NCBI GenBank assembly: GCA_023270155.1 | Contig: JAGLTB010000041.1 | Coordinates: forward strand, 1-39,623 | Reading direction: 5' to 3' | From: Candidatus Heimdallarchaeota archaeon | Lineage (GTDB): Archaea; Asgardarchaeota; Heimdallarchaeia; Heimdallarchaeales; Heimdallarchaeaceae | DNA length: 39,623 bases | Shown: positions 5,511 to 28,440 of the stretch, in pieces | Numbering within the stretch: position 1 is the stretch's first letter | How the letters are laid out: each line of letters begins with the position of its first letter | Translations under genes and position numbers: made by a program | Notes under the pieces: generated by a model | The model's input: the letters and a program-made list of their open reading frames with translations, nothing else | What the model was told of the DNA's origin: nothing | Database searches by the model: none

Positions 5511-5643
5511 GCTATAAAAGACACAGCATAATATTTAAAGTAATTCAAATACCTTATAAAAGAGAAATAAAATCCGACAATAACTTTCGTTTAAGTTTTA
5601 GCTAGTTTAAAAACCAATTTCTGGATTCATCTATTGAGCAGAC

Positions 5644-7482
5644 ATGCGCTTACATCTCACCCGTATAATGTTGATGATCATATTGGTCACTTGCATCACT
5701 CTCGATAATGTTACATGGGTGGGATTAGGCTTAAATCTGCCCAATTCAGAACCCTACTCAACACACAAAAGTGGGGAGCTTTCAGGGACATTGGGAGATA
5801 ACATCACGTTTGAATACAATGAAACATTTAAAGAAAGCTCCCTAAACCTTTCTTTAGATATAACGAGTATAAACCGTTTCTGTGAAATCCGTTTTTACTT
5901 CTTAGTGGAAGGTGATAAATCACTCAGATCTGATCTAATAGTTGGATTCGAATTCGAAACAGAGAATCTGGAATTTATAATCGGAAGTCATATGCAAGAT
6001 ACTTTTGAACATGAATTGATACAAGGATTTTCGCTGTCAAACGAAGTTAATTCCAACTTGAATTTAACGCTCAATTTCCAGGGTCAAGCATCCTATGCCC
6101 AGAATGGGAGTATAACTGTTCTAGCTCATACTGCTTTCGTTAATCTTCCAATTCCAGAAATAACGGAAATACAACAGAGTTTTGAAATCACACCTGAGTC
6201 GATGAGTTTTGAAGGAGAAGTTTTAGGTGTCAAGAGAGTATATGCATTGTCTGTTCTAAATAACTCATTTGACGCGAATTATAGTCTTCTTTTACAACTT
6301 TCATTTACAACAAACGATTTTTTCTCTTTTAAGAGAGAACTAAGAATAGTAGTCAATTCAGAAGAACAGGAATTTCTGAATTTTGATTCTGATGGAGTAA
6401 ATTCTATAGAACTGGAACTCAACCTAGATTTAGGTATTAATGCAATAATATTTGATTTTAGAATTGAGATGTCGATTAATCTCATAGAAATTAGTAATAT
6501 AGCGATTGATGGTTATGCTGCTGTAGATTCTTCTGATGAAGATGTCTATTATGAAATTTTATGGAATGATGAAATTAACGAAACAATCAATCTTTCTCCC
6601 TTTAAACCTTCGTTAAGCATTGCAGAACAAATTCTTAATATCTCAATATGTATTAGTTTCGAGGGTACAAAAGTATATGATGGGATAGGATATACAGTTT
6701 TCCAAGGCTTAGTTCAACTTACTTCTGGTACAATACAGTCAGCAGCTCAAATAAATGAAAAATCATTTTTAGAAATTCATACTTTCACATATAATTATCT
6801 AGATCAAATTATGATAGAATTTAATGCTGCAGGAGCAGGAGTTGGAGTAATTTATATTTACAACACAACTACAATCCACACCCGAGCATTAAGTCATATT
6901 AACAAGCAAACATATCAGATAACTATAGAAGAATTCATAGAAATCGAAACACCAACTATTGGTTCTGTAAGTAGAGAATATTATGATGTGATTTTTATAG
7001 AGAACAATACAGTAGGATTTAGAACAAATCTTTCCTTAACTCTCTCATCTCAAGATTCAAATTTTGGTGGTTTGAACATCTATTTTATTGTAAATGATGA
7101 ACTCATTTTTACGAAAAGTATAGCAGATCTTGGTTCGGAAGAATTTTCAGAACATGTAGTTTTTCGTGAAGGTTATAATGAGATAAGAATCATCTTTTCA
7201 ATATCAGGAAACGGAGCAATTGTCAGATTAGAAGACATCAAATTTTCTTTATATCAATCAGACGAGGAAACACCATTTGAACAAAATCAGGAATTTACAG
7301 AAATACCTTTGTTCAAGAGTCCAAAGACCATTTTGGTTGGAATTTTTGTGCTATTTGATTGCTGGTTAATTATGGGGATTATTCTTAGAATTTACAGAGG
7401 AAGAAAGTTTAGTAAAAAGCAACAAACAGAGAATGATGAATTCATTTTAGAGATTGCACAGATTTCCCAAGATAATCCCTGA
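5644..7482 (+). CDS. Secreted/membrane-anchored protein of unknown function
   Basis: Signal peptide, N-glycosylation-type Asn-rich ectodomain, C-terminal TM 'ILVGIFVLFDCWLIMGIIL'; TATA-like 'agtttaaaaacc' upstream. Confidence 0.75.
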   Translation: MRLHLTRIMLMIILVTCITLDNVTWVGLGLNLPNSEPYSTHKSGELSGTLGDNITFEYNETFKESSLNLSLDITSINRFCEIRFYFLVEGDKSLRSDLIVGFEFETENLEFIIGSHMQDTFEHELIQGFSLSNEVNSNLNLTLNFQGQASYAQNGSITVLAHTAFVNLPIPEITEIQQSFEITPESMSFEGEVLGVKRVYALSVLNNSFDANYSLLLQLSFTTNDFFSFKRELRIVVNSEEQEFLNFDSDGVNSIELELNLDLGINAIIFDFRIEMSINLIEISNIAIDGYAAVDSSDEDVYYEILWNDEINETINLSPFKPSLSIAEQILNISICISFEGTKVYDGIGYTVFQGLVQLTSGTIQSAAQINEKSFLEIHTFTYNYLDQIMIEFNAAGAGVGVIYIYNTTTIHTRALSHINKQTYQITIEEFIEIETPTIGSVSREYYDVIFIENNTVGFRTNLSLTLSSQDSNFGGLNIYFIVNDELIFTKSIADLGSEEFSEHVVFREGYNEIRIIFSISGNGAIVRLEDIKFSLYQSDEETPFEQNQEFTEIPLFKSPKTILVGIFVLFDCWLIMGIILRIYRGRKFSKKQQTENDEFILEIAQISQDNP

Positions 7483-7504
7483 TCTCATTTTCATTTTTCT
7501 CCTA

Positions 7505-7526
7505 CCTTAAAAAGTAATTCACATAT
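7505..7526 (+). promoter_or_regulatory. TATA/palindrome promoter element, variant copy
   Basis: CCTTAAAAAGTAATTCACATAT, 34 bp before ATG 7539; aligns with copies at 10574 and 18366. Confidence 0.6.
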
Positions 7527-7538
7527 ATTTTAGTGAAC

Positions 7539-8936
7539 ATGGCTACATCTACATTATTTGACAAACTAAAAACTGTGAGTCAAAATCAAAAGAAGAATAT
7601 AAAGGAAAATTTACAAACCAGAGGAGAGCTTCCCTGGAAATATCAGATTCTGATAGTTTTAGGATTCTGGTTCCTCTTGTTTCTAGTTATGTTTGTACTC
7701 TGGAATCCAAATTCCCAATGGGGAGTCATAATAATTGCAAGTGTAGGTTCTGTGATTGCAGTTGAAGGAGTAAATTATTTTATTAGAAGGGTAACTGCTA
7801 AATCAAGATCAATTGAAGAAGAGTTGGAAGAGGGAGATGTTGATCAAGTTGATTTGAAAAAGCAATCGATTCTAATTGGAGATTCTTACAAGAGAGGATT
7901 TGCAGTTCTTGCTCAAAGAAGAAAAAATACTTACACACTTACACCTTTGATTGTATTGGAAGTTCATTTAGTCTCTTCATCCTCTTTATCTGTACTAAGT
8001 TCTCTTTCAAAGGTATCGTTACAAAAAATCAGTCTACAGTATAATTGCAGTATTGTAGATACATCAAGATATGAAGTCTTATTGCTTAAAGGAAATAATC
8101 AAAGCTGCAAACAAATTTCTTTACTTAGTACAATTAAGAACCTGGAAAATACATTTTTCCTGGATGCGATTGAGTTAGTAAACGAGCTAAAAAGAGAAAA
8201 AAGAATTGAATTTGAATGTCCAAAGCAAGAGATTCTAAAAGAATTGTTCCCATCCCATGGTCTTATAGTAAATTTTGAAACTCACACTAAAGAAGAAATC
8301 AATAGTGTAGAAGTAACAGCTATAGAGATTAAGACAGAAGAAACGTTTCCTTTGGATGAAGATGATGTGTTTAGTGAAGAAGAAATCAAATATCTTCAAG
8401 AAGATCTAAATCAAGAAGCTCTATCTTTAGAAGAAAGTGAGGAAGATAAAATCCAAAAATCAATGATAAAAGAAGTCCTTCTCAAAGAACTAGATTTCTC
8501 CATAGATTCATTTCTTACAACAGCTAGGGAATATTATAAGAAGGCAATAGAAAGGAATTTGGAGAGTAGCTTTGCTGTAAAAACAAATACTTTCCTCAAA
8601 TTTGTGCATCTCTTTTGTGATAAAAATGACATGCCATTTTTTTATCCCTCTTACTCTTATTTACTCAAAATAATCGAATTCTTGGATGTTGAAATGCCTT
8701 CATCCACAGATATTGAGAATTTCATTAATAAATTAGCGAACGAGTTTGTTGAAGTAGCTATTCCAGATGAGATTAAAGAAGAACTTTACGAAGCTTTGAA
8801 TAAGAAATTTAACAACAACGGTTCTTCCAATCAAGTTATTGAAGATGTTATAGATTCAAAAATCTCATCTATTCCATTACCCCCCGAAAAGAATACTAAA
8901 AATACAAAAATCGAGAGAGGTACTCAAGATGATTGA
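7539..8936 (+). CDS. Membrane protein with two N-terminal TM segments and large acidic cytosolic region
   Basis: Track ORF starts at GTG 7533, but ATG 7539 (MATSTLFDK) fits the promoter spacing; hydrophobic 'ILIVLGFWFLLFLVMFVLW'. Confidence 0.75.
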   Translation: MATSTLFDKLKTVSQNQKKNIKENLQTRGELPWKYQILIVLGFWFLLFLVMFVLWNPNSQWGVIIIASVGSVIAVEGVNYFIRRVTAKSRSIEEELEEGDVDQVDLKKQSILIGDSYKRGFAVLAQRRKNTYTLTPLIVLEVHLVSSSSLSVLSSLSKVSLQKISLQYNCSIVDTSRYEVLLLKGNNQSCKQISLLSTIKNLENTFFLDAIELVNELKREKRIEFECPKQEILKELFPSHGLIVNFETHTKEEINSVEVTAIEIKTEETFPLDEDDVFSEEEIKYLQEDLNQEALSLEESEEDKIQKSMIKEVLLKELDFSIDSFLTTAREYYKKAIERNLESSFAVKTNTFLKFVHLFCDKNDMPFFYPSYSYLLKIIEFLDVEMPSSTDIENFINKLANEFVEVAIPDEIKEELYEALNKKFNNNGSSNQVIEDVIDSKISSIPLPPEKNTKNTKIERGTQDD

Positions 8937-9585
8937 AGACATGTTTTTCTTGAACATTATTGAATTCTATCTGAAATTCTGGCTGATTTCCTTGCTTCTA
9001 AGATGGATAATTTCCTTTCTACCAGGAAAAATATCAGATGTTGTAAGATTTGTAGGTAATCTAATTAGATTTCCCATAAAGAGATTCTTCTATTGGGTTT
9101 ATGGAGTTTCGATTATAGAAACAGATTTTGAGAAATCAATTTTCGAAACTGAAGAACTAAGGGATTTTGATTGTAGAATTACTTCTAATATTCTTGCTCC
9201 ATTATTTATTCAATCCTATATTGGATCATTCATATATTACTGGGCTCAGTATCTGTATGTAGAAAACTATCTATGGGTAAGTATAATCCTATTTGTTTTA
9301 GCTTTTGCCATCATTCTTATGGCGGCTCCTGATTATCACGAATGTGAAGATATTCTCAAAGTAAGTGTAAAATCAATTTTTAAATGGATGGGGAAACTAC
9401 TCGTACTTTCACTACCTGTTTACTTCTTAGTACACTTTCTTGCAGGTAATGAAGCTCTCGCACAAGGACTTTTCATAATCACTTTGTTAATTCCTTTTTA
9501 TCATCATTCATTTCAAGAAAGGGAAGAACCTATGATTAAATCGAAAAAAGCTAAGATTTTAGAGGCTGATCCTTTTGGAGAGTAA
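8929..9585 (+). CDS. Multi-pass membrane protein
   Basis: Overlaps previous ORF by 8 bp; several hydrophobic helices. Confidence 0.75.
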   Translation: MIEDMFFLNIIEFYLKFWLISLLLRWIISFLPGKISDVVRFVGNLIRFPIKRFFYWVYGVSIIETDFEKSIFETEELRDFDCRITSNILAPLFIQSYIGSFIYYWAQYLYVENYLWVSIILFVLAFAIILMAAPDYHECEDILKVSVKSIFKWMGKLLVLSLPVYFLVHFLAGNEALAQGLFIITLLIPFYHHSFQEREEPMIKSKKAKILEADPFGE

Positions 9586-9601
9586 ATACGAACTCAATAA
9601 G

Positions 9602-10558
9602 ATGATTGATAAAATCGTTGAAAATGTCGAATCAGCTTTGGAAAAGCTTGAAGGGAGTATATCTAAAGAAGATAAAATTAAATCTGAAAAACAGAGTACA
9701 CCAGATTCAAAACTCCCATTTCCAAGTATTAGATATCCCATTCCAAAAGACTCTATCGAAGAGGAAAATATCAAAGAAGAAACTATTGAGATAATTAAAC
9801 AAGAGAGCATTCCAGAGCCACCTAAATTTAGAATAGAAAAAGAGGAAAAGGCAGAAGTCAAACCAGAAATTTCTTCAAATTTAAATGAAGAAGTTCTAGT
9901 TTATCAAGAGAATGATGAAGACATTTCACATGATTCTGAGATTAATTTTATTGACATAAAAAAAGAGGTAAGATTAATACATCTTTATGGTCCTCCCAGT
10001 GGAGGTAAAACAACATTAGCACTTCAATCAGCAATTGAAATTTTACCAAAAGAGACTTTCTACATAATCACTAGTCATTCCACATCAATTCTAAAACGGA
10101 TTAAACAAATGGTAATTGATGACAGATGGAAGGATTACCCTGACCTTAAACAATATTTCTTCCCAATCCAGATTCAGAGTCTAAAGGAATTGCAACATCA
10201 AATCGAGCAGATTATTAATTTCAGTTCTCAGGAAATTGGAATGGTTGTAATTGATCATATAACAGATTATATTCGAGGAGAGACGCATAAAGAGGAGAAC
10301 AGAGAGATTCTAAGAAGCATCTTTGAAGATCTTTATATGTTAACAAATAAGAAAAAATGCAAAGTATTAATCGTCAATGGGTATGCTTACAAAGGTTCTG
10401 CACCTGCTGAAGACTTGATTGAATCATTTTGTGATATGACGATAAAAATAACAAATGAAAGAAAGGATTTTGATATTGAAATTGATGATCAAATAATCAG
10501 TACTTTTCAGATTGATAATTCAGGTTTCGAAAATATACATCTTAACATCTATTTTTAG
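9602..10558 (+). CDS. RecA/RadB/KaiC-type P-loop ATPase with acidic N-terminal extension
   Basis: Walker A 'LYGPPSGGKTTLAL', Walker B-like 'IGMVVIDHITDYIRG'. ATG 9602 is an in-frame alternative to the track start at 9575. Confidence 0.75.
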   Translation: MIDKIVENVESALEKLEGSISKEDKIKSEKQSTPDSKLPFPSIRYPIPKDSIEEENIKEETIEIIKQESIPEPPKFRIEKEEKAEVKPEISSNLNEEVLVYQENDEDISHDSEINFIDIKKEVRLIHLYGPPSGGKTTLALQSAIEILPKETFYIITSHSTSILKRIKQMVIDDRWKDYPDLKQYFFPIQIQSLKELQHQIEQIINFSSQEIGMVVIDHITDYIRGETHKEENREILRSIFEDLYMLTNKKKCKVLIVNGYAYKGSAPAEDLIESFCDMTIKITNERKDFDIEIDDQIISTFQIDNSGFENIHLNIYF

Positions 10559-10573
10559 TTGATAATTTATCCT

Positions 10574-10596
10574 CCTTTAAAAAGTAAATTACATAT
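10574..10596 (+). promoter_or_regulatory. TATA plus palindromic operator-like element
   Basis: CCTTTAAAAAGTAAATTACATAT, 36 bp before ATG 10610; contains perfect GTAA-A-TTAC palindrome. Confidence 0.7.
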
Positions 10597-10609
10597 TATT
10601 CTAATAGAC

Positions 10610-11098
10610 ATGGCTTACATAACAGAAGGACAAATAGTTGATTTACTTGCTGACAAATGGAAGGAAGATAATAAGTTAGTAGCTAAAGAATTGGTTGTTC
10701 CTGTAATTGATCAAGTTTACTATGATAATTTTCTTGAAGGTAGAGAACAAGTTAGAATCGATCTTGCAGCTTATGATACCGTTACTGATCAAGTAATTTT
10801 CGTTGAAGCGGAGAATGGGTTATATTTACAACATCCTCAAATTTATTTGCCTTTCTGCAATATTCTCTATATTTTGTGTCCAGAAGATCAATCCTCTTTC
10901 AGGGAAGAACAATTCAAGTGGAGCAAAGAAAGGGGAATTGGGATTATAGAAGTAAGCAAATCAGGTCTACTCAGTTACTCGCTAGATCCCAAAATTAGGC
11001 AGATATTCCCTAAAGTTCAAGCTTTTGTCAAATCAAGATTATTCAAAAGAATCAAGAAGGAGAGTGGAAAAGATTCTACGATTACTATCAAACAATAA
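10610..11098 (+). CDS. Small protein, possibly PD-(D/E)XK nuclease-like fold
   Basis: In-frame ATG 10610 preceded by conserved promoter element; 'RIDLAAYD...VIFVEAENGL' resembles the D-x(n)-ExK core, with Glu in place of Lys. Confidence 0.6.
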   Translation: MAYITEGQIVDLLADKWKEDNKLVAKELVVPVIDQVYYDNFLEGREQVRIDLAAYDTVTDQVIFVEAENGLYLQHPQIYLPFCNILYILCPEDQSSFREEQFKWSKERGIGIIEVSKSGLLSYSLDPKIRQIFPKVQAFVKSRLFKRIKKESGKDSTITIKQ

Positions 11099-11099
11099 A

Positions 11100-14000
11100 A
11101 TGCAGAAATTCGTTGGTTCGAATAAATCAATATATACTATAAAGCAAAAAAAGGATTTTACAGTTTATGCATCTTTTATTATCAAACCTTTCAAACAAAT
11201 TGAAGAAGATATAAAGCAAAAAAGAAAATGGTCTTATTCAAACAAAGAGGAAAAAGAGAAAACTAATCCCCTTTTATCAGTTCTAAACGAAGTTAAAATG
11301 CTAAATATCTCATTGCATAGAATGTTTATTCCAGGAAATGTTAAGAAAAAGAAAAACGTAGAGAACGCAAAGAATCAAAAGAACTCTTCATCTTCACTTC
11401 TCAATGAATTATTCGAAAGTGATGATCAGGATATGGACGTTTCGCTTTCCTTTTTTATACTAAAAGTATGGAAGAGTTATGATTTATCTTCAACTTTTGA
11501 AACAGAAAGTAATCTAGTTGATGACTTTGTTTCACATTTGAGAAGTGAATTAAAACAGAAACTAGAAGGTGTAGGGAAAGTTGGTAGAGTATTAGGAGAT
11601 ACATTAGAGGAACTTGTAAGATTCAGCACTCTAAATCATAGTAACTTTCTAAGTAAGGGAAATAAAGTTTTTAGTGAGCTAACAAAAGATTTCGCATTTA
11701 TAGAAAAGAGTGAAGAATTTCAACGCTCTTTTCAACCTGGTCCTTCAGTAGATAAGAGACCTGATAGTATCTTTTCATTCCCGTCAGGTATTGAAACGAA
11801 TAGTAGTCTACTTGTAGGTTTAACGGAATCTGATATTCCAGTAGGATTACCTAAAGATCCTTCATTCCCCATTCTAATTGCAGGAGACAATAAAACAAGA
11901 GAAATAATCACTAGCAAATTGTTAGAACAAAATGGGAAATTTATCATTTTAGATCCAAGGACAAATTTAGAATTTGAAAACAGAATCAAGACTGATTTTA
12001 CATCTTTGAAATTAGGAGAGAATTTCTCTTTCAACGTTCTAACTCCAGTGACGAACAAGAACTATATCTCTGAACAAGTTTCTAATCAGTATCTTGGTAA
12101 TTTTATTGAAATAATTCGCTCAATAACAGATGTTCGAAGCGATGCAGCTGCTTTGCTACGTGATTTAATTGATTTCTACATCAACGAATATCAAGAGGAA
12201 CAAGAAGATGTTCTGTTTCCTAGACATGATACGCCTGTATCATTAGATGATCTTTATTCAATGCTAACAATCGAACCAGGTGGATTAGTGATCACAGACT
12301 ATCAACTGTCAACAGTCCGCTCATTAATTAACGACATCAGAGATCCGAGTATAAGTGAAAATACAAGAATCAACGATGTTAGAGGTATAGAAGAGTTATT
12401 TACAAATAACATGATAATCAATTTCAGCTCCCAAGGTTACAAGGTACAAAAACTGTTTATCTATTCTTTTCTGCTCCAACTAACAATCATTGATCAAGTT
12501 ATGAACATCGATGAAGACATCCTGATTTATATTGATGATGCAGAGCTTTTCTTCTCAAGAGATATAGATAAAACCATTCTCTCACATATTCTGAAAAAAC
12601 TTGAAAATAGTCCTTTCAAGATAATATTTTCTACTCCTTATCCTTCTCATCTTTCTTCTCAAATATTTGATTTAACGTATAACAGAATCATTGGCAATCT
12701 CAAATCAGCTAATTGTCTTAAGCTCATCTCTAGATCCCATGGTTTGGATAAAGGGCAGTTTGAATTCATCAGACGATTACCAAAAAACAATCTTCTTCTG
12801 GTGAGAGAGGATCTAATGGAAAAACCACTTTTACTTAGATTCTTCCCAGAGGATTCGGAAAGATATGAAACTCAACCGATTAGAAATAAGCAGGAATTTC
12901 ACAAAAATCCCAAAATTCTGAAAACTGAAGATGAAATCCTAACTGTAAATATAGATGACTTTTCAAGTTTGCATCCAATTATGCTTGAAATTCTAAATAA
13001 GCTCTCTACCAAAGTAAATAGAGGGATTAACTCTGAATCTTTGAGTAATCTTTTCACTAATTGGGAAAAAAGCAAAGTAAAAGAAGCAATTTCAGTATTG
13101 GAAACGTTTGGATATATTTTCTTTGAAACTGTTGATAAACAAGGTAAGAAGGGAGAATACTGGACAAAAATTACTCCAAGGGGAAAAAGATTCCTTGAAA
13201 AGCTTAAGTTTACAAAGGTAATTGAGGTTAAGAATAAGGAAGCAGAAGACGATTCTGATCCTAAAGAAACGAATAGAAGAAATTCTTTAGAAGTGGAAAC
13301 TGTTTCAGATTTCATCGAATCTCCTAGTATAGAAATCACTTCAGATAATTCTTCTTTAATTGTAAAAAAACTTCAGAAGCAAAGAAAGAAAGTAAGAGAA
13401 ACAAGAGATTCAGAGAAGAAACAGAAACAAAAACTGGAAACTCTTAACTCAACCTTATTACAAGTAAAATCATTACTTAATAATGAATTTGAAGAAGAAG
13501 TAAATAGGTTGAACATTTTTCTTACTGCACTTTCAGGATATCTAGAGGAAGATAATTCTCTCAAAGAATTACCTAGAGAAATCTTGGAATCAATTTTTCG
13601 GAAAGCACTCTCTCTGATTGATGCGATACAGATAAAATCTACATTTGGTGAATCTTCAACTAATTCTACTGACGATGAATTTATTGAGAAAGTTATAGAA
13701 AAGGAATTGAATTCAGATAAATGGCAAGACTTTGATAGAGAAGTCTTCTTAACAGAGATTCCAGAATTATCTTCGTTAAGCAAGAATCAGAAGAAGATCA
13801 CTAAAAAGCTCTCATCAGAATTACCCGATGATATCCTGCAAGGATTAGAATTAGGTTTGGATCTTAGTAAAGAGGAATTTGTTAAACTCGTTAGAAAAGC
13901 AATTGCTTCTTTATTACAAATTAAAACAATGTTCTATCCTAATATGGATTCAGAGAAGTATCTGGAAGAAGTAAATACATTTTTTGAAGAAGTAGGTTAT

Positions 14001-14222
14001 TCTGAACCATTTGAGAAATCTAAGCAATTATTATGGGAATATACAGCTAAGAAAAAGAAAAAAGAGAAAAAATCATTGTCAACTTATCTGGAAAGGAGAG
14101 AGATAATCGATAGGATTCAAGAAGAAAGTGGATCCTTTGAATTTGATTTAGAAGGTAAAAGCAAGGATTCACTTGTTAGTCAACTTATACAAACCATTCG
14201 GAAAAAGATCAAAAATGACTGA
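11100..14222 (+). CDS. HerA/FtsK-like ATPase-fold protein with degenerate P-loop, winged-helix-like segment and long helical C-terminus
   Basis: In-frame ATG 11100 one base after upstream stop; 'PILIAGDNKTREIITSKLLEQNGKFIILDPRTNLEF' at Walker A position, 'DILIYIDDAELFFS' at Walker B, wHTH-like 'ESLSNLFTNWEKSKVKEAISVLETFGYIFFE'. Confidence 0.65.
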   Translation: MQKFVGSNKSIYTIKQKKDFTVYASFIIKPFKQIEEDIKQKRKWSYSNKEEKEKTNPLLSVLNEVKMLNISLHRMFIPGNVKKKKNVENAKNQKNSSSSLLNELFESDDQDMDVSLSFFILKVWKSYDLSSTFETESNLVDDFVSHLRSELKQKLEGVGKVGRVLGDTLEELVRFSTLNHSNFLSKGNKVFSELTKDFAFIEKSEEFQRSFQPGPSVDKRPDSIFSFPSGIETNSSLLVGLTESDIPVGLPKDPSFPILIAGDNKTREIITSKLLEQNGKFIILDPRTNLEFENRIKTDFTSLKLGENFSFNVLTPVTNKNYISEQVSNQYLGNFIEIIRSITDVRSDAAALLRDLIDFYINEYQEEQEDVLFPRHDTPVSLDDLYSMLTIEPGGLVITDYQLSTVRSLINDIRDPSISENTRINDVRGIEELFTNNMIINFSSQGYKVQKLFIYSFLLQLTIIDQVMNIDEDILIYIDDAELFFSRDIDKTILSHILKKLENSPFKIIFSTPYPSHLSSQIFDLTYNRIIGNLKSANCLKLISRSHGLDKGQFEFIRRLPKNNLLLVREDLMEKPLLLRFFPEDSERYETQPIRNKQEFHKNPKILKTEDEILTVNIDDFSSLHPIMLEILNKLSTKVNRGINSESLSNLFTNWEKSKVKEAISVLETFGYIFFETVDKQGKKGEYWTKITPRGKRFLEKLKFTKVIEVKNKEAEDDSDPKETNRRNSLEVETVSDFIESPSIEITSDNSSLIVKKLQKQRKKVRETRDSEKKQKQKLETLNSTLLQVKSLLNNEFEEEVNRLNIFLTALSGYLEEDNSLKELPREILESIFRKALSLIDAIQIKSTFGESSTNSTDDEFIEKVIEKELNSDKWQDFDREVFLTEIPELSSLSKNQKKITKKLSSELPDDILQGLELGLDLSKEEFVKLVRKAIASLLQIKTMFYPNMDSEKYLEEVNTFFEEVGYSEPFEKSKQLLWEYTAKKKKKEKKSLSTYLERREIIDRIQEESGSFEFDLEGKSKDSLVSQLIQTIRKKIKND

Positions 14223-16401
14223 AAGTAACTTTACTCCCTACAACTTAACAGACTTTCAAGAAAGGTGTCTTGATGAATTTGAAGCAGGAAAGGATGTCCT
14301 TGCTGTAGCTCCAAGTTCTGCAGGGAAGACATTTATAACTGAACAATACATTCTGGATTATTTTCAGCAAAATTATGGTAAATTTCTTGTTTCTCCAAGA
14401 AGAATGAAAGTTGCTTTCGTTTTACCCTACAAATCGCTAGCAATTCAAGAGTTCAACCATTTTTCCACTTTAGTAGATAAACGAGGAATCAAGCTTCTTC
14501 TTGCAGTTGGAGGAGTGGACATCAAAGAAGAAGAACTAGCAGATGCAAATATCATAATAGGCACGTATGAGAAGATCTTAGTCCTTTTCAAGCGACATCA
14601 AACCCTTCGTAAATATCTCAAAGTTCTGGTCATTGATGAATTCCATTTTATTAGTACTAACAGAGGGACAGTATTAGAAGAAATAGTCTTAGAATGGATA
14701 AAAAATAGAAACAAAACTCAATTAATATTACTTTCATCATCAGTATCAAATCCTTTAGAGATTTCTGATTGGTTAAATGTTGTTCCAGTTATAGCAACAA
14801 AAAGGCCAATCCCTATTACATATTCAGTTGAAGTATCATCGAATTTCAAGCAATTTATCAAACAACTGAAGAGCACTGGAAAGCAAATTATGGTTTTCTG
14901 TCATTCAAGATCTGAAGCTGAAAATCTTGCAGATAAACTCAGTAAAGAATTTCCAATAAAAATGGAAACGCAGATTGATCAAATCATCTATAGTTCTCTT
15001 GCAAATATAGATGATGACAAAGTTCGGGAAACCATACAAAATGCATTTTTCCCAGTTCTACTAAAGAATGCAACACAAAGAGGTGTTGCATATCATCATG
15101 CCGGTTTATCAGGAATTGTGCGATTACTGATTGAAAATATGTTCCTTCAAAATGAGTTGGATATCTTAGTCTCAACTTCGACTCTAGCTGCTGGAATAAA
15201 TCTTCCTGCTGATATAGCAGTCTACACCATAAAACACAAGAAAATAGATGCGGAAAATAATCTAGTTTTCCAAACTTTAGGTAGAGCTGGAAGATTGGGT
15301 TATCGAAGCAAAGGAGAAGGATTAGTAGTTGTTACAAATGAAAGAATGAAAGCTAAAACTGAAAAAAGATTATTTGAGGATGAAGGAGGGAAAATCAAAC
15401 CTATTTTTCATTCAATAGAGAGTAAATTAGGAGATTATGACTTTTTAATCAAATTCTATCTTGAAAGTTTGCATTATTCCGAAAAACCTTATTCAAGTAA
15501 TTTAGCTCATCTTATTGAACCTATTAATGATTCGCTCTGGTTCTATCAGAATAAAACAAAATTAATGAGACATTTGATGGATTATGAAATTCTGCATGCA
15601 TTTTTTTCTTCAACTGAATCTAATTTTAATCCAGAAGAGATTATTGACTTTTACCAACGATTTGATAAGACTCGTAAAATTAAAAAAACAAGAATGGAGA
15701 TCCAATCTATAGAAGGACTGAACAAGGCTGCAATAGTTGCGAACATAAGAGAACAGTCAAGATTATTTCAAATCTACTTATCTCCTTCAAGACGAAGTTG
15801 CACGTGTCAAAGTAAACATTCCAATTTTATCTGTAAGCATCAAAGATTTCTATTGAAAGAGTACCCAGAGGCTCAAGAAAGATGGTTAAGTACATATGGA
15901 ATATTCGATTTTCTAATCAAAGAAGGGTTTGTAGTTAAATCAGCAGGAGAAAATTTCAACTTAACATATATGGGTCAAATAGCAGCACAGTACTTTATTC
16001 ACCCATATGATTTTCTGGATTATCTAGAATTCTGCGGTACGAACAAAAATATAACTATCTCACAATATTTGAAACAATTCATTACTCGTGATAAGAATAT
16101 TAAGCAAGAAATCAAAGCTAATGAATTATCCTCTCTACAAGCAATAAAATTAGCTCAAAGCATAGTTAATGGAGATAATATTAAGCAAATGTGTGAGAGA
16201 TATAATGTAAGTGATAGTTTCATTGAAGATTGGAAAGAAACTATCTATAGATTCATGAGAATGTTTCAATCAATTCATTATTTTACAGGAAATAAAGAAG
16301 AAGCAGAAAGAATCGTAAAATGGATAGAAAATAGCATAGCCTTTAGAGAAAAAGAGGTTGTAAAAACTAAAAGAAAAGAAATGAGTACAGACGCTACCTA
16401 G
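14215..16401 (+). CDS. SF2 (Ski2/Hel308-like) helicase with C-terminal SWIM-type zinc motif
   Basis: Motif I 'APSSAGKTF', DExH-type 'VLVIDEFHFI', motif VI 'QTLGRAGRLGYRSKGEG', 'CTCQSKHSNFICKH'; overlaps upstream stop in ATGACTGA. Confidence 0.85.
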   Translation: MTESNFTPYNLTDFQERCLDEFEAGKDVLAVAPSSAGKTFITEQYILDYFQQNYGKFLVSPRRMKVAFVLPYKSLAIQEFNHFSTLVDKRGIKLLLAVGGVDIKEEELADANIIIGTYEKILVLFKRHQTLRKYLKVLVIDEFHFISTNRGTVLEEIVLEWIKNRNKTQLILLSSSVSNPLEISDWLNVVPVIATKRPIPITYSVEVSSNFKQFIKQLKSTGKQIMVFCHSRSEAENLADKLSKEFPIKMETQIDQIIYSSLANIDDDKVRETIQNAFFPVLLKNATQRGVAYHHAGLSGIVRLLIENMFLQNELDILVSTSTLAAGINLPADIAVYTIKHKKIDAENNLVFQTLGRAGRLGYRSKGEGLVVVTNERMKAKTEKRLFEDEGGKIKPIFHSIESKLGDYDFLIKFYLESLHYSEKPYSSNLAHLIEPINDSLWFYQNKTKLMRHLMDYEILHAFFSSTESNFNPEEIIDFYQRFDKTRKIKKTRMEIQSIEGLNKAAIVANIREQSRLFQIYLSPSRRSCTCQSKHSNFICKHQRFLLKEYPEAQERWLSTYGIFDFLIKEGFVVKSAGENFNLTYMGQIAAQYFIHPYDFLDYLEFCGTNKNITISQYLKQFITRDKNIKQEIKANELSSLQAIKLAQSIVNGDNIKQMCERYNVSDSFIEDWKETIYRFMRMFQSIHYFTGNKEEAERIVKWIENSIAFREKEVVKTKRKEMSTDAT

Positions 16402-18293: not shown

Positions 18294-18365
18294 AGTATTT
18301 TCTCTTACTTAGAATTAATAAACTTTTGCTGAGGAATTTGATTGGTGTTTTCAAGCTCGTTACCA

Positions 18366-18388
18366 CCTTTATAAAGTAAATTACGTAT
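18366..18388 (+). promoter_or_regulatory. TATA plus palindromic operator-like element upstream of radA
   Basis: CCTTTATAAAGTAAATTACGTAT, 21/23 identical to the 10574 copy; 38 bp before ATG 18404. Confidence 0.7.
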
Positions 18389-18403
18389 AAATTATTGAAA
18401 GAC

Positions 18404-19591
18404 ATGGCGTCCAAAGAAAGTGAAATAGAATCCAATGATTCAGCTCCTAGTAAAAAAGGAGCTAAGAAAACATCAACCGATTCTTTAATGGAATTTCTAA
18501 AAGGAATTAAGGGTCTCTCGGAGTCTATGCAAAAGAGAGTTCATAAGGTTCTTACAACTGAAGGGATAGTTGATCCTAGGGGTATAAGAGCTTTTACTCA
18601 AAAAGAACTTGAGAATCTTCCAGGTATAACAGATGCCACCGCTAGCCTTCTCTTCGGGCAATTTGAAAGCAAGAGAGACGGGAGTATTTTCTTATCGCTT
18701 GAGGAAAGAGAACAACTAGAGCTAGTTAGATCAAAAATTCTGACTGGAGCTAAGGAGCTAGATACATTACTTCAAGGCGGAATACCAACTGGAACTTTTG
18801 TCGAACTTTACGGAGCACCCCAGAGCGGGAAGTCTCAGATGTGTTATTCTATCAGTGTAAACTGCCTTCTGCCAAAAGATTTTGGTGGTTTAGAAGCAGG
18901 AGTAATTTGGTTGGACACTGAAGGTTCATTTAATTCTCAGAGATTAAAACAAGTTCTATCCTACTATGAATATACTTACAACATCCCAAAAGGGAAACTA
19001 AACACAGACAAATTCATGGTAGCTGCTACACGTACTCTAGCTCAAATTGAACTTGCTATAAAAGAAGCTGGAAAAATTATTCCAAAGAACAATGTTAAGC
19101 TATTAATTGTAGACAGTTTGATGGATCCATTCAGGAGTGAATACGGAGGATTAGGTGAATTAGCGAGCAGACAAAAACATCTGAATAGAGTTCTGCATAA
19201 TCTCATGAGAATCGCTGAAGCTTACGATTTAGCCGTTGTTTATACGAATCAAGTTATGGCGAATCCTGATCCATTTGCTACTGCGATGGACAAGGTTCAA
19301 CCTACAGGAGGTTTTATTCTCGGGCATGCTTCTGATATTCGCTTGTGGTTAAGAAGAGCAACTTCAAAGATTCGCAACCAATTTGATGCACCTAATGCTC
19401 GAAGAGCTCTTATTACAGATTGTGGTTGGTTACCTCAAGCTGAGTGTCATTTTAGTTTAGGGCCTTTTGGAATATGTGATGTTGCAGAAGAAGCTAAACA
19501 CAGAGAGTTAGCTTTAGAAATCGGATTTGATGTTAAGGAAGAAGCTAGTCAAGAAGAGGAGGTTCAAACAGAATTTGCTACAGTAGAGTGA
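18404..19591 (+). CDS. radA: RadA-family recombinase
   Basis: N-terminal HhH region 'ELENLPGITDATA', 'ILTGAKELDTLLQGGIPTGTFVELYGAPQSGKSQMCY', 'VVYTNQVMANPDPF...GGFILGHASDIRLWLRR'; ATG 18404 preferred over TTG 18395. Confidence 0.85.
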   Translation: MASKESEIESNDSAPSKKGAKKTSTDSLMEFLKGIKGLSESMQKRVHKVLTTEGIVDPRGIRAFTQKELENLPGITDATASLLFGQFESKRDGSIFLSLEEREQLELVRSKILTGAKELDTLLQGGIPTGTFVELYGAPQSGKSQMCYSISVNCLLPKDFGGLEAGVIWLDTEGSFNSQRLKQVLSYYEYTYNIPKGKLNTDKFMVAATRTLAQIELAIKEAGKIIPKNNVKLLIVDSLMDPFRSEYGGLGELASRQKHLNRVLHNLMRIAEAYDLAVVYTNQVMANPDPFATAMDKVQPTGGFILGHASDIRLWLRRATSKIRNQFDAPNARRALITDCGWLPQAECHFSLGPFGICDVAEEAKHRELALEIGFDVKEEASQEEEVQTEFATVE

Positions 19592-19601
19592 GGGGAGTAT
19601 T

Positions 19602-22600
19602 ATGCATAAATCTTGTTTCTTTCTTCTTATAATATTACTTTTTCCACTTCCTATTACACAATTGATAGTAGAAAATGTAAAAACGCCATCGATAGTTGTT
19701 AATGATTATTCTTATACAATTCAAGTTCAAGATAATGAAGATTCAACCAGTTTTCAACATCAGATAATTCGAATAATATCTGATTCTGATTCAGAACTAT
19801 TAGGTCAGTCAGCAGATCAATCCAATCTTCCATCATTAGCCCCAGCAGTTTACCCAAGTTATTCAAGCATTTCTAGCAACGTTTCCTCTATCCAAAGAGG
19901 AGAAAAGGTTGAAGCAACTGCAACAACTAAATTTGAGTTAATAGGAATGATGCCAGTTGATAGAGGTACTCATTACTGGTATGATTTAGAAGAGGTTTTA
20001 AGCGATTCTGAAGCATTTTCTAATACTATTTCATCCAATCTGCTAGCTATTGAGTTTTCCATTCCTGTAACGATTGGAATGATGGCCTTTGCCTTTAATC
20101 TTTCACAGATATCTTCACTTACTACTAATCAAATTGACTTCTATCTTACTGATAATATTTCAAGCTTTCAATCCGATTATCTTATGAAGTATGAAATTTC
20201 ATTTAATAATTATAATTTTCATAAGGATAACGCTGATTCTCCTCTGTTATTTGCTTTCTGGGATCATCCACTTTCCATTCAAGTGGATAACATTCTAGTA
20301 GCAGATACTAGTTATTATGTTATACTCTCGTCATCAAGTAGTTTTTCTCTTCAATGTTCTAATGACACAACAGGTGCGGATAACAACAGAGTTTATTCAT
20401 ACGAAAGTAGTAATTGGATTGAGCAATCTGGAGTAGATTTTCAATTCAATGTTTATTCAGGTTCATTTCTTACAAGCAGTTCTGTTGATTCCAGTGGTGA
20501 AACATCAACTATGTATGATTCAACAGGCTCTTCTGGTTTGTTTCATCTTTTTACTGCTTCATATTATGATAACAGTGCCCTATATGATTGTTCAGCAAAT
20601 TATGTTAGGATTAGCATATTAGATTCAGGTTATCCAGATTTTCTTATTCTCTCTTCCCCTCCCTCTGCTGAATATTCAGATTACATTGATTTAGTTGCAA
20701 AAGTTGAAAATCTGTTTCATCAACCTCTGCAAGATATCAATGTTAGTTACTATTATTCTAGTGATAATCAATCTTGGAGTTATCTGGATTCCGCACTGAG
20801 TAATCAGAATGGTTTTGCAACTCTACAACATACTATTAATCAACCCTCAGGTTTTGTTTATTTCAAAGCAATTGTCAATCTGATAGCAGCATATTCACAA
20901 ACGGAACAACATAAAGAAGGGATTGTTATCTCTATTCCTAGAGTCAATAGTGTTTATGGAAGTGTTGTAGGTTCTGCTACTTTCTCTGAGTACGTATTGA
21001 ATGCAGAGATTAAAGATAATGACTGGGATCCGTTAGAGGGATTAATCGTTCTGTTCTATATGCAAGGCATATTTGACCCAGTTGTTTCAGCTACAGATGA
21101 AACAGGATGGTCGAAAACTCCAATAGGACTGATAGAATGGGATGCAGGATATCATCCCAATTCATTCTGGATAGTTATTGATTTGGATTCAAACCTCTAT
21201 GATTTCCAAGCTACAACCTATGGGGATATAGATATAGGACCAAATAAAATAACGCTTCAAGCTTCTCAAACCTTCGAAAATCTCTGGAATGAACCAACAA
21301 TCATTGATTTTGGCTTTTCAGATCAGGAAGGAGATTCAATCCCCAATTTGAATTACGAAGCATTAGTTTACAGTGAACAAACAGGGATTAATACTTCTCT
21401 AGGAATTTATCAATCAGATCAAAACGGAAATGACACTATTTCTTTCCCTGCTGATTTTTTTGATCCTGGAAATTATATCTTTTACATAAAAGTCAGTTCA
21501 TATAATTATTATCATTTCGAGCATCCTCTAAATGTAGCAATTCAAAGTGATCAAGCAAAAATTAGTGTAGATTTAACCTCAAATATCACCTATGAATACA
21601 ACTCGAATTTAGAGGTAGTAGTTTATGTTGATGACCATTTAGGAAATCCATTAAGTGGTGTTTCAGTAGTAGTATATGTCTCCCTACCAAATTTCTACGA
21701 TTTCTGGAATGAGATATATACATTTCAAACTAATTCATCTGGTTATGCATCTATAGATTTGAATCTCAAAATGCAAGTTGGAGATCTACTAAATATACTG
21801 ATAACAACAGAAGATTATTACGATAATGGAATTTGTTATTATTCAAGTGCTGAATCGTCAATTATTTATGTTGAGTGCATCAAGGCTTCAAGTTCTTTTC
21901 AAGAATTGAGTGATATAAATTGTACAAATCAGGAGACAGTTACAATTTCAGGAAGATTAATGTCAAATGGAATAGCTATTGCTGGAGAAACTATCACAAT
22001 AACTATTTTAGGCCAGGAATACAATGTAATTACAGATTCTAATGGATATTTTACCTTAGATTATCTTGTTTCTAGTGGTGGAATAATAAATGTTGATTTT
22101 ATTTTTAACAGTTCGACTAATTATTTTGATGCTAATGGCTCTATATCATTAACCAGCTCTCCAGGAGATTTAGCTATCGAAAATTATGACATTCATCAGA
22201 ATACAACAAATCCAGTTGTATTTGAAGCAACATTACAATCAAACTTTGGTACCAATCCAGAAGGGGTTTTGGTTGATTTCTATTGGTATAACGGTGTGAG
22301 TTGGATTCTTATTGACTCTGCTTATACCGATAGCTCTGGATTGGCAACATTAGTCACAACAATCACATTCCCACTAGGTGAGTTTCTATGGAAAGCTGTA
22401 GTTAGCTCTTCTTCTGATTGGTATGGGACAGAAAGCATCAGAAACTTGAAAATAGGTTTTAACACAAATCTTCAGATCTCTTCAGTTTCAGAAATTGAAT
22501 ATCATTCAACTCTTCAAATTATAGTAGAAATTAGGGATGAATACAATAATCCGATACTTGTGGAAATAGCTTTCTATCTAAATGGGAGTTATATTGGATC

Positions 22601-25600
22601 AGCTTTTTCAAATCTTTCAGGAATAGCGATTTTTGAATATCTTATTGACTTCTCTCCTGGAAACTACAATCTTACAGCTGAGATGATACAAACAGGAATG
22701 TACCTAACTAGTTCAGACAGCAGTCCACTAAAAATAATTAAGACAAACAGCGTTATTTCAAGTTCAGATATATTCATTTACTATAATCAAACAGCTTCAA
22801 TAGCTGTTTATCTGTATTCTACATCAGGAGGTATAGCTTCAGAATATGTTACATTGAACATATCAGGAATCATAGAATTACAACTTCTTACAAACTCCTC
22901 AGGATGGGCAGAATGGCAAATACCGTCAATATCACCAGGAGTTTACAACGTCTATATTAGTTTCGAGGGGAATAATTTCTTCTTTGAAACAGAGCTCACA
23001 ATTACTTTAGATATCGATAAGATGTCTACAGAGATTACTCTGAATGCTCAAAATCAGTACTATGACTCAACTTACCAAATAGATGGTTATCTTCAGGATC
23101 AGTTCTTTCAACCAATAGCTGGAGAAGCTATAATCCTATACATCAATGGTAGTGAATTTCAAACTACAAATACTGACATATATGGTCATTATGAATTTTC
23201 TATCTCTCTTGAACCAGGAGTATATTTGATAGACATTGTATTCAGCGGAAACGATAATTATTTCGCATCAAGCTCAGAAAAAACTGTTTACATCTGGCAG
23301 TTAATTACTTCAATCCAAGGCACAGTTTCATGGGAAAATCTTACACTAACACTTGAAGCCATACTGGAGGATGGAAGTGGAAATCCTATAGTTGGTGAAA
23401 GTATACTCTTCTTTCTAAATGGAACTTTGGTAGGACAGAATATTACAGATGTAACAGGATTAGCTATACTAGTATTAGAAGATCAAATCCCTGGAATTTA
23501 TGAGATAGAGATTTTCTTTGCAGGAACTTCAATATATGAACAATCACAACAAATCATAGTTCTTCAGCAAGAAAAACTCCAAACTGAAGTTAGTGTTTAT
23601 GTTGGAGAAGGGATATATGCAACAACTAATACTTGGATTTTAGTACATCTTACATCAGCTGGCATTCCTCTTTCAAATAAGGATGTTCGAATATTGATCG
23701 ATGGAGTAGAATATTTCAGTTTGACCAACAGCTCTGGTTATGCACAGGTCTTTCTGGGCATATTATCTGATGCAAAGGACTATGATTTAGAAGTTATTTT
23801 TGATGGAGATGTTCTTTATTCTTCAGTTAATTACATAGCAATTTTTACGATAATGAAAGCTGAGTCATCAATCATTCTAGATTTCTCTTATGAAAATTAT
23901 CTACCTAAGCTAGATGGAAGTTTAAATGGACAAACTATGATGAGTGGAGAATATATCCATATATTCGTAAATGGAACAGAATATTTCATCCTTACGACTG
24001 ATTTTGAAGGTAAATTCTTAACTTCCCTTGATTTGGAAGCAGGAATCTATGAGATAACAGCTAGTTATTTTGGGAACTCTAACTATCTGGCTACAAATAA
24101 AATAGTAATTATTGAGATAGCAAAAACACCTACACAAATCGTGTCTTCAGCTTTCTTTAATCAAACTTATGGAATTGAGTATTCTTTCGAAATACAACTT
24201 TTTGATGCACTAAACAATCCATTAAAAGCAAATATTATCATCTCATTAGATGGAAATTATTATGCTACAATAACAACTGATGCTTTAGGATATGCAATAG
24301 TCATTCTTTCGGATTTAATATCTGAGGGAGCACATAGTCTCACTCTGGAATATCAAGGAAATTCTGTTTACTACCAAACATCTCTGAACATTGTATTCTA
24401 TACAAAATTCCTGATCGAAATAGAAGATATTCAGATGAATCCAGAATCCTTTGGAATTGTTGGTTCTCTTGAGGGAAGGATAAACACCTATGGAGGAACC
24501 TTGAATCAATTAGCATTTATTATTACTTTAGATGGAATTGATTATTTAATTGAAACAAATAGCACAGGACACTTTTCTTTTATTATAGACAAGTATCTCG
24601 ATGCAGGCACCTATTCCATTGCGTTTAGAGTTTATGAAACCATGAAAATTTTCTATTTTGAAACATCCTATATTATTGTAAAAGAAACTGGAGAATATAG
24701 TATTTCTCTAGATAGTCATCAGAGTATTTACAATCAAGCTGAAAATGTCTATGGAAGTGTTACATTTCTTGGCTCTCTACAAAATAACATAGATGTTGAG
24801 ATCTTCATTGATGGGATTTTCATAGGAATCATATCAACCAATTCTTTGGGTGAATTTACTATTCTATATTCCTGGTTGGATCTAACACCCGGTAGCTATA
24901 ATCTTACATTGATGGTAGTTTCAAATGATTCCAACCTAAAGGATACTTCTAAGGTATTCATGTTCGAAATAGGTAAGGATTCTGTCACACTACTAATTGA
25001 TTATGAAAATAATGTTGTTGAAAGCGACATGACTATCAGTATCTTTTTCCTAGATACTAATAACAATCTAATTCCTATGTTTTCCTTTACAATCAATATT
25101 GACGGTTTAATTATGAACGGAATCACAGATATCAATGGTTATGCAACATTAAGATTCAGATTGAATCAAGCTGGTTCTCTTCAGTTGATACTCTCAGCAG
25201 AAGAATCTGCATATTACCATGAATTCACTGATGCGGTTGTAATCAATGTTGAGAAATGTGATTCAAAGTTTGAAATAGAGAATAATACAGTTGCATATAA
25301 TAACTCAACAGGTTTAGCAATTTATCTCTATTCAATGAATAATAATCCTTTGAGTAACATGCCAATTTTTGTGGATTTCAACAATCAAACTTTAAGTAGA
25401 TATACAGATAGTGAAGGAAGAATAGTTCTTGATATTTCTGACATTACGACTGGATTTTACACATTAAAAATACTATTCAGTGGATCAGTAAACTACAATA
25501 GCTTAGAAATAGAGTATACAATCGAAATTGTTCCTCAACTGACATTTATCGAAATTATCGAAGAGGACCATGAAGTTCGAATCTATCTCTATGATAGCGA

Positions 25601-25940
25601 GAACAGGACCTTACCTTATAGAGAGATTGAAATCCATTATGTAAGTGAAAACGGAACTAATATTTTTTGGAAGGGATTTAGAACAAATTCTAAAGGTTAT
25701 ATATCGGTCGATTTAGATTCAAAAGATTTACCAGAAAAAGTAAACAAACTTCAATTAATATTCAATGGAGAAACTTTGTATAAGAATAGTTGGATTTTAG
25801 TAGACATTTCGAAACTAGTGGAATTTGGAAGAGGTGTTCTTGCTAATATGACTTGGCAAGCATTATTAGGAATTGCAAGTGTTTTGGGGCTAGTATCTTT
25901 CCTAGTAATCAGAAGAAGAAAGAAGATAAAACCACTCTAA
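19602..25940 (+). CDS. Giant (2112 aa) secreted Ig-like repeat surface protein with C-terminal TM anchor
   Basis: Signal peptide; many ~90-aa repeats with 'NPLxG..V.(I/V)..NG...TN.SGYA' pattern; C-term 'LLGIASVLGLVSFLVIRRRKK'; SD-like AGGGGAG before ATG. Confidence 0.85.
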   Translation: MHKSCFFLLIILLFPLPITQLIVENVKTPSIVVNDYSYTIQVQDNEDSTSFQHQIIRIISDSDSELLGQSADQSNLPSLAPAVYPSYSSISSNVSSIQRGEKVEATATTKFELIGMMPVDRGTHYWYDLEEVLSDSEAFSNTISSNLLAIEFSIPVTIGMMAFAFNLSQISSLTTNQIDFYLTDNISSFQSDYLMKYEISFNNYNFHKDNADSPLLFAFWDHPLSIQVDNILVADTSYYVILSSSSSFSLQCSNDTTGADNNRVYSYESSNWIEQSGVDFQFNVYSGSFLTSSSVDSSGETSTMYDSTGSSGLFHLFTASYYDNSALYDCSANYVRISILDSGYPDFLILSSPPSAEYSDYIDLVAKVENLFHQPLQDINVSYYYSSDNQSWSYLDSALSNQNGFATLQHTINQPSGFVYFKAIVNLIAAYSQTEQHKEGIVISIPRVNSVYGSVVGSATFSEYVLNAEIKDNDWDPLEGLIVLFYMQGIFDPVVSATDETGWSKTPIGLIEWDAGYHPNSFWIVIDLDSNLYDFQATTYGDIDIGPNKITLQASQTFENLWNEPTIIDFGFSDQEGDSIPNLNYEALVYSEQTGINTSLGIYQSDQNGNDTISFPADFFDPGNYIFYIKVSSYNYYHFEHPLNVAIQSDQAKISVDLTSNITYEYNSNLEVVVYVDDHLGNPLSGVSVVVYVSLPNFYDFWNEIYTFQTNSSGYASIDLNLKMQVGDLLNILITTEDYYDNGICYYSSAESSIIYVECIKASSSFQELSDINCTNQETVTISGRLMSNGIAIAGETITITILGQEYNVITDSNGYFTLDYLVSSGGIINVDFIFNSSTNYFDANGSISLTSSPGDLAIENYDIHQNTTNPVVFEATLQSNFGTNPEGVLVDFYWYNGVSWILIDSAYTDSSGLATLVTTITFPLGEFLWKAVVSSSSDWYGTESIRNLKIGFNTNLQISSVSEIEYHSTLQIIVEIRDEYNNPILVEIAFYLNGSYIGSAFSNLSGIAIFEYLIDFSPGNYNLTAEMIQTGMYLTSSDSSPLKIIKTNSVISSSDIFIYYNQTASIAVYLYSTSGGIASEYVTLNISGIIELQLLTNSSGWAEWQIPSISPGVYNVYISFEGNNFFFETELTITLDIDKMSTEITLNAQNQYYDSTYQIDGYLQDQFFQPIAGEAIILYINGSEFQTTNTDIYGHYEFSISLEPGVYLIDIVFSGNDNYFASSSEKTVYIWQLITSIQGTVSWENLTLTLEAILEDGSGNPIVGESILFFLNGTLVGQNITDVTGLAILVLEDQIPGIYEIEIFFAGTSIYEQSQQIIVLQQEKLQTEVSVYVGEGIYATTNTWILVHLTSAGIPLSNKDVRILIDGVEYFSLTNSSGYAQVFLGILSDAKDYDLEVIFDGDVLYSSVNYIAIFTIMKAESSIILDFSYENYLPKLDGSLNGQTMMSGEYIHIFVNGTEYFILTTDFEGKFLTSLDLEAGIYEITASYFGNSNYLATNKIVIIEIAKTPTQIVSSAFFNQTYGIEYSFEIQLFDALNNPLKANIIISLDGNYYATITTDALGYAIVILSDLISEGAHSLTLEYQGNSVYYQTSLNIVFYTKFLIEIEDIQMNPESFGIVGSLEGRINTYGGTLNQLAFIITLDGIDYLIETNSTGHFSFIIDKYLDAGTYSIAFRVYETMKIFYFETSYIIVKETGEYSISLDSHQSIYNQAENVYGSVTFLGSLQNNIDVEIFIDGIFIGIISTNSLGEFTILYSWLDLTPGSYNLTLMVVSNDSNLKDTSKVFMFEIGKDSVTLLIDYENNVVESDMTISIFFLDTNNNLIPMFSFTINIDGLIMNGITDINGYATLRFRLNQAGSLQLILSAEESAYYHEFTDAVVINVEKCDSKFEIENNTVAYNNSTGLAIYLYSMNNNPLSNMPIFVDFNNQTLSRYTDSEGRIVLDISDITTGFYTLKILFSGSVNYNSLEIEYTIEIVPQLTFIEIIEEDHEVRIYLYDSENRTLPYREIEIHYVSENGTNIFWKGFRTNSKGYISVDLDSKDLPEKVNKLQLIFNGETLYKNSWILVDISKLVEFGRGVLANMTWQALLGIASVLGLVSFLVIRRRKKIKPL

Positions 25941-28396: not shown

Positions 28397-28440
28397 CCAA
28401 TAAGATTTAAATATCTGGAAGCGAAATTTAATCCACTATG
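28397..28440 (+). repeat. Promoter-region repeat, copy 1
   Basis: CCAATAAGATTTAAATATCTGGAAGCGAAATTTAATCCACTATG; 39/44 identical to 28994-29037. Confidence 0.8.

Follow-up and report, generated by a model that had tools for sequence, protein, structure and literature searches.

The DNA element at positions 18366 to 18388, upstream of a radA paralogue, can be read as a member of a distinct class of core promoters in a Heimdallarchaeal genus, at which a dedicated initiation factor would act and through which a recombination-linked gene cluster would be co-expressed; going by the sequences, we judge this reading somewhat probable. Heimdallarchaeota are microbial relatives of the ancestors of complex cells. 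With a compact, rare motif that marks the whole cluster, both gene regulation in the lineage closest to eukaryotes and the role of its extra TFBs become accessible to testing. The class also predicts which unknown genes share the expression of the cluster. Positions refer to the window, that is, the whole stretch of 39,623 nucleotides that was analyzed, and genes are named by their first position.

A rare element shared by three promoters of the window

Near-identical elements of 22 to 23 bp are located upstream of genes 7539, 10610, and 18404, the last of these being the radA paralogue. An earlier note on this DNA had reported that CCTTTAAAAAGTAAATTACATAT (10574) and CCTTTATAAAGTAAATTACGTAT (18366) are identical at 21 of 23 positions, which was confirmed by comparison, and the variant CCTTAAAAAGTAATTCACATAT that it placed at 7505 is present as well (7505 to 7526). 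Counted from the first base of each element, the ATGGC starts follow after 36 (10610), 38 (18404), and 34 (7539) bp, within the 34 to 38 bp given in the note. With up to two mismatches, the full 22-mer is found in the 2.58-Mb draft genome only at the three sites of the window; at three mismatches, four further scattered sites appear in the 2.58 Mb. A reversed-pattern control gave two matches. With one mismatch allowed, the palindrome (a 9-mer) occurs in the window 24 times versus 19.4 expected. This is no enrichment over chance, and the palindrome alone was therefore rejected as the signal.

Conservation of the promoter across the genus

For radA, 10610, and 7539, the orthologues in the same genus, sampled at about 17 species, were lined up at their start codons. 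The same 35-mer is common to the orthologous promoters of the three genes in up to 17 species. In the 39 aligned promoters, which are related and hence nonindependent observations from draft metagenome-assembled genomes with start sites predicted from sequence, a T/C tract precedes the TATA box, which is followed directly by an AATT-like block, an AT-rich, ATNAT-like stretch, and then, usually, GACATGGC or a close variant. The TATA-plus-downstream promoter element described in the earlier note is real.

The palindrome, at which a repressor could act according to the note, fares differently. Among the ∼17 species, GTAANTTAC is confined to the genome of the window (G000) and its nearest relative (G003), whereas the other species carry another AATT-containing block at this position, for example, GAAATT or CAATT. 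In the window, the palindrome GTAAATTAC lies on the forward strand at 10584 to 10592 in the promoter of gene 10610 and at 18376 to 18384 in the radA promoter, where it is the form that the conserved AATT block downstream of the TATA box takes in this lineage; other species lack it. Dyad symmetry, sought across the orthologues as the hallmark of a palindromic operator, is not conserved. The conserved unit is instead an asymmetric 35-bp promoter that consists of a T/C tract, a non-A-rich BRE position, a TATA box, SAATTT, and NMKGATTAT.

These observations bear on the proposal, made in the earlier note, that a repressor, presumably a dimer, binds GTAANTTAC just downstream of the TATA box and so prevents initiation at the cluster and at radA. 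The palindrome is perfect at two promoters, with a variant at the third, and in the G000/G003 lineage, the three promoters resemble each other beyond shuffled labels (P = 0.029 for all genomes). However, this covariation disappears without G000 and G003 (P = 0.36), the other species lack the palindrome although they keep the AATT block in its place, and the conserved motif also reaches upstream of the TATA box and to about −10, so that we consider repression through the palindrome unlikely. A motif conserved on both sides of the TATA box resembles a core promoter and would favor an initiation factor; by the sequence pattern, a dedicated factor of this kind would be a better fit than a repressor bound to the palindrome. 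For the three promoters, concerted evolution across all species was also considered and rejected, the signal being confined to the G000/G003 lineage, where gene conversion, or a binding factor that has changed locally, may account for the raised similarity.

A promoter class distinct from generic promoters

An initial sequence-only model, derived from the cluster promoters with G000 and G003 left out, detected dozens of other sites in every genome of the same genus and was far weaker in most other families. After addition of these sites, the model became a 26.6-bit 35-mer, TTTTYYYYNMS-TTTATAAAT-SAATTT-NMKGATTAT, the first base of which is usually located 40 to 50 bp from the start codon. Members of the class have a TATA-like box at a fixed short distance upstream of the start but lack the A-rich BRE directly upstream of it, with YYYNMS at positions 5 to 10, whereas the generic TATA promoters (45 to 53 examined) possess an A-rich BRE and no downstream motif. 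Elsewhere in the window, the neighboring genes at 28438 and 29035 have near-identical promoters of another type (gatttaaataTCTGRAA.CGAAATTT.ATC.A).

Against a background of sampled stretches and whole-genome model scans, the class is rare. In 289 kb of G000, a position weight matrix (PWM) trained without the G000 and G003 cluster promoters yielded 8 sites of ≥16 bits versus 0.2 expected, and four of these are the window sites 5595, 7495, 10565, and 18357. In 400 kb of another genome of the genus, G001 (317 ORFs), 11 such sites were found versus 0 expected; 8 are upstream of genes, including the four of the cluster, three of which were themselves among the roughly 68 sequences used to train the PWM. 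When the 68 TATA promoters of G001 were scored by their flanks only, the four cluster promoters reached +13.7 to +22.7, and all others stayed at −0.6 or less. A refined model (R2; E ≤ 0.05) yielded 9 to 37 sites per genome of the genus (f1), 6 in the f2 genome, and 0 to 2 in f3 and f4.

The rarity in both scans and the bimodal flank scores bear out the contention of the earlier note that the element is not a generic promoter. An ordinary promoter in its strongest form, with no dedicated factor, would account for elements at the canonical BRE, TATA, and −10 positions, but the wide gap in the flank scores and a BRE-side composition opposite to the generic A-rich BRE of the genus make it very unlikely. 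As judged from its sequence, the 35-mer is a distinct promoter class; searches of the open-access literature returned no account of a second class of promoters in Asgard archaea.

Four class promoters are located on the forward strand of the window. The one before radA (18357 to 18391), which contains 18366 to 18388, scores 21.1 bits with the held-out PWM (R1 E = 3.3e-7) and is conserved in 13 genomes. The promoter of gene 10610 (10565 to 10599; 22.4 bits, held-out genome) contains the copy at 10574 and is conserved in the orthologues except in two species (G005 and G008), in which gene 10610 lacks it and appears translationally coupled to its neighbor. The promoter of gene 7539 (7495 to 7529; 17.5 bits, held-out genome) contains the variant at 7505 to 7526 and is kept in the orthologues. 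A fourth related promoter, GTTTTAGCTAGTTTAAAAACCAATTTCTGGATTCA, overlooked in the earlier note, precedes gene 5644 (5595 to 5629; 17.2 bits with the held-out PWM and 15 bits with R2), and its G001 orthologue (C15:89066) scores 20.7 bits. That the cluster carries four promoters similar to each other, of a type both rare and conserved, suggests control of the cluster as a single unit by a putative factor.

Genes of the cluster

All genes of the cluster are on the forward strand. Gene 5644 (5644 to 7482) encodes a predicted secreted or transmembrane protein that belongs, by BLAST, to the same family as a RING-finger surface protein under the same promoter class. The latter (L163:5145-7832, reverse strand) is itself a predicted secreted or transmembrane protein with a C-terminal RING finger (PF13639), which suggests that the genus may possess membrane-bound ubiquitin-ligase-like proteins. 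Next come membrane protein A (7539 to 8936; 465 aa), which among 30 relatives is restricted to the same genus; a 218-aa membrane protein (8929 to 9585); and an ORF of 327 aa for a RecA/RadB-like ATPase (9575 to 10558; TIGR02237, 1.6e-13, under the curated cutoff). Gene 10610 (10610 to 11098) encodes protein B, 162 aa, with a predicted PD-(D/E)XK-like nuclease fold and an invariant E..D..ExE pattern (E27, D51, E66, and E68); its structure model (pLDDT 78) has 3dnx as the best PDB match (E = 1.1e-5).

The large product of gene 11100 (11100 to 14222) contains a degenerate P-loop and a winged-helix-like region (PADLOC mad8, 2.6e-4; alignment A4) and is possibly, if weakly, FtsK/HerA-like. The name HerA was not assigned, the structure model having a pLDDT of only 37, and a search of solved structures with this protein returned chance matches only. 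It is followed by a 728-aa Hel308/Ski2-type helicase (14215 to 16401; NF040935, 1.3e-50, under the cutoff, with Ski2-like PDB matches), the 395-aa radA paralogue (18404 to 19591; Rad51, 3.8e-56, with RadA equivalogs below the cutoff), and, directly 3′ of radA, a 2,112-aa Ig-like surface protein (19602 to 25940) that is syntenic in G001, G003, G004, G010, and G017. The radA and 19602 genes are probably on one transcript. A second, decayed radA copy in G004 (C119:23124-23675) has two in-frame TGA stops, with the class promoter still upstream.

G001 retains the order 5644-7539-8929-9575-10610-11100-14215-radA-19602, and G003, G004, G010, and G017 retain most of it; radA and the gene for the surface protein still adjoin within about 4 kb in Ca. 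Heimdallarchaeum endolithica. The named relatives are Heimdallarchaeota/Asgard metagenome-assembled genomes. The cluster is syntenic across the genus, and the link between radA and the cluster that the earlier note drew from the element holds. Several genes of the cluster are predicted to function in DNA handling, among them the RadA-type recombinase.

Genes behind class promoters elsewhere

In five genomes, the first gene behind each of 58 sites was surveyed, with only family representatives scanned. The products are structured RNAs and proteins of several kinds: TPR proteins, TnpB/Cas12f-like proteins, archaeal actin-like, LuxC-like, and AMP-binding proteins, families of 270 and 100 aa of unknown function, and surface proteins that carry signal sequences, one of which, when tested, had a RING finger. 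Among the annotated first genes at these 58 sites, none outside the cluster was recognized as a canonical repair gene, and the other radA paralogues of three genomes score 1.7 bits or less and so lack the class promoter. Because of this membership and the missing element at the other radA paralogues, the DNA-metabolism regulon proposed in the earlier note is unsupported genome-wide; the genome-wide motif scan that the note suggested found the element to be specific and rare but not enriched before repair genes. The unity of the cluster holds even though a repair regulon is not supported across the genome.

Several class members have features of their own. PADLOC called no defense system for the promoter-class proteins other than the Cas12f-like ones. 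A conserved structured RNA (CCCCTCAACGCACGTGAGGGG...AACGTGCG) overlaps and runs past the 3′ end of TnpB/Cas12f-like genes, like guide-type omega/re-RNAs (L172:236-331, reverse strand; L268:2278-2372, forward; L270:1077-1172, reverse). It also occurs as standalone elements of ∼250 nt (L256, L286, L264, and L274), some with the same promoter class, is found in the f1 genus only, with up to at least 26 matches per genome, and has no match in Rfam. Genes for a LuxC-like acyl-CoA reductase and an AMP-binding, possibly LuxE-like protein (L285:282-1745 and L171:1007-2158, both forward) each have a class promoter.

In Sulfolobales, UV- and DNA-damage-responsive promoters carry the motif A(N)TTTC, the Orc1-2-bound DDRE (PMC5817253, PMC9738581); in Sulfolobus, it lies at −44 to −39 above a weak BRE and is proposed to aid TFB recruitment (PMC5817253). 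An activator could likewise read the T/C tract upstream of the TATA box as an element for DNA damage or DNA exchange. Around the equivalent position, 17 of the 39 cluster promoters contain ANTTTC versus 1.7 expected from shuffled segments, a count that yields no probability because the promoters are related, and the cluster brings together recombinase, helicase, nuclease-fold, and surface or membrane proteins. Nevertheless, the exact hexamer is absent there from the promoters of the window itself, the other class members are not recognizable repair genes, and the other radA paralogues lack the class promoter; we regard a DDRE-like element as rather unlikely.

A candidate initiation factor

The favored reading of a dedicated initiation factor would work as follows. 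The class comprises about 10 to 40 promoters per genome, and the four in the window would drive the units 5644, 7539-8929-9575, 10610-11100-14215, and radA-19602 (predicted operon limits). Given a start codon 40 to 50 bp from the first base of the element, the transcripts would be short-leadered or leaderless. Because these promoters lack an A-rich BRE, recruitment would be expected to depend on another TFB or on an activator, so the dedicated factor would replace or aid the usual TFB. TFB and RNA polymerase contact both sides of the TATA box and the region near −10 (PMC7289017), and the conserved bases of the class are found on both sides of the TATA box and near −10. The putative factor could be a divergent TFB paralogue that reads both flanks of the TATA box or an activator that recruits TFB; in response to a presumed signal, the whole cluster would thereby be expressed together.

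Three types of TFB were identified in the genus (L323, L324, and L314 to L316), one of which, TFBb, is divergent and, among the TFBs aligned, present in f1 only and not in f2 to f4; in the region of the recognition helix (TEVTLRNRYKE), it nonetheless stays close to the canonical sequence. TFBb was not found in the f2 genome G019, an 85% complete draft, though a few class promoters are present there, and given this imperfect co-occurrence, TFBb was rejected as the proven reader of the class. A broader scenario, which we put forward tentatively and hold to be rather improbable, is that a second promoter class is defined by TFBb, as a general transcription factor paralogue specific to Asgard archaea, or by an activator, and that this class coordinates a surface-linked machine for DNA exchange or recombination. 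Such a system would be a functional counterpart of the UV-induced Ups/Ced DNA-transfer regulon of Sulfolobales. The parts of such a machine would be the surface Ig protein, the membrane proteins, the nuclease, the P-loop protein, the Hel308-like helicase, and the RadA paralogue.

Comparison with known promoter systems

Like the canonical archaeal BRE/TATA core promoter, the class has a −10-like AT element and a TATA box that precedes a short-leadered or leaderless start at the expected distance; unlike it, the class has pyrimidine or C/G at the BRE position where the canonical promoter is A-rich, a conserved SAATTT directly behind the TATA box, and NMKGATTAT. With the DDRE promoters of Sulfolobales, it shares a T-rich, TTTC-like element just upstream of a noncanonical BRE and TATA box and associated genes that cover DNA handling and cell-surface functions. 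It differs from them in that the hexamer is limited to 17 of the 39 cluster promoters, none of them in the window, in its additional downstream elements, and in that most other class members, recognized here from sequence, are not repair genes; enrichment for repair or transfer genes, a DDRE hallmark, is not seen among class members. Alternative TFBs with promoters of their own are represented by the haloarchaeal multi-TFB systems and by TFB3 of Sulfolobus (reviewed in PMC7289017), and as in those systems, a promoter subclass is found here in an organism with several TFB paralogues, to one of which it may be paired.
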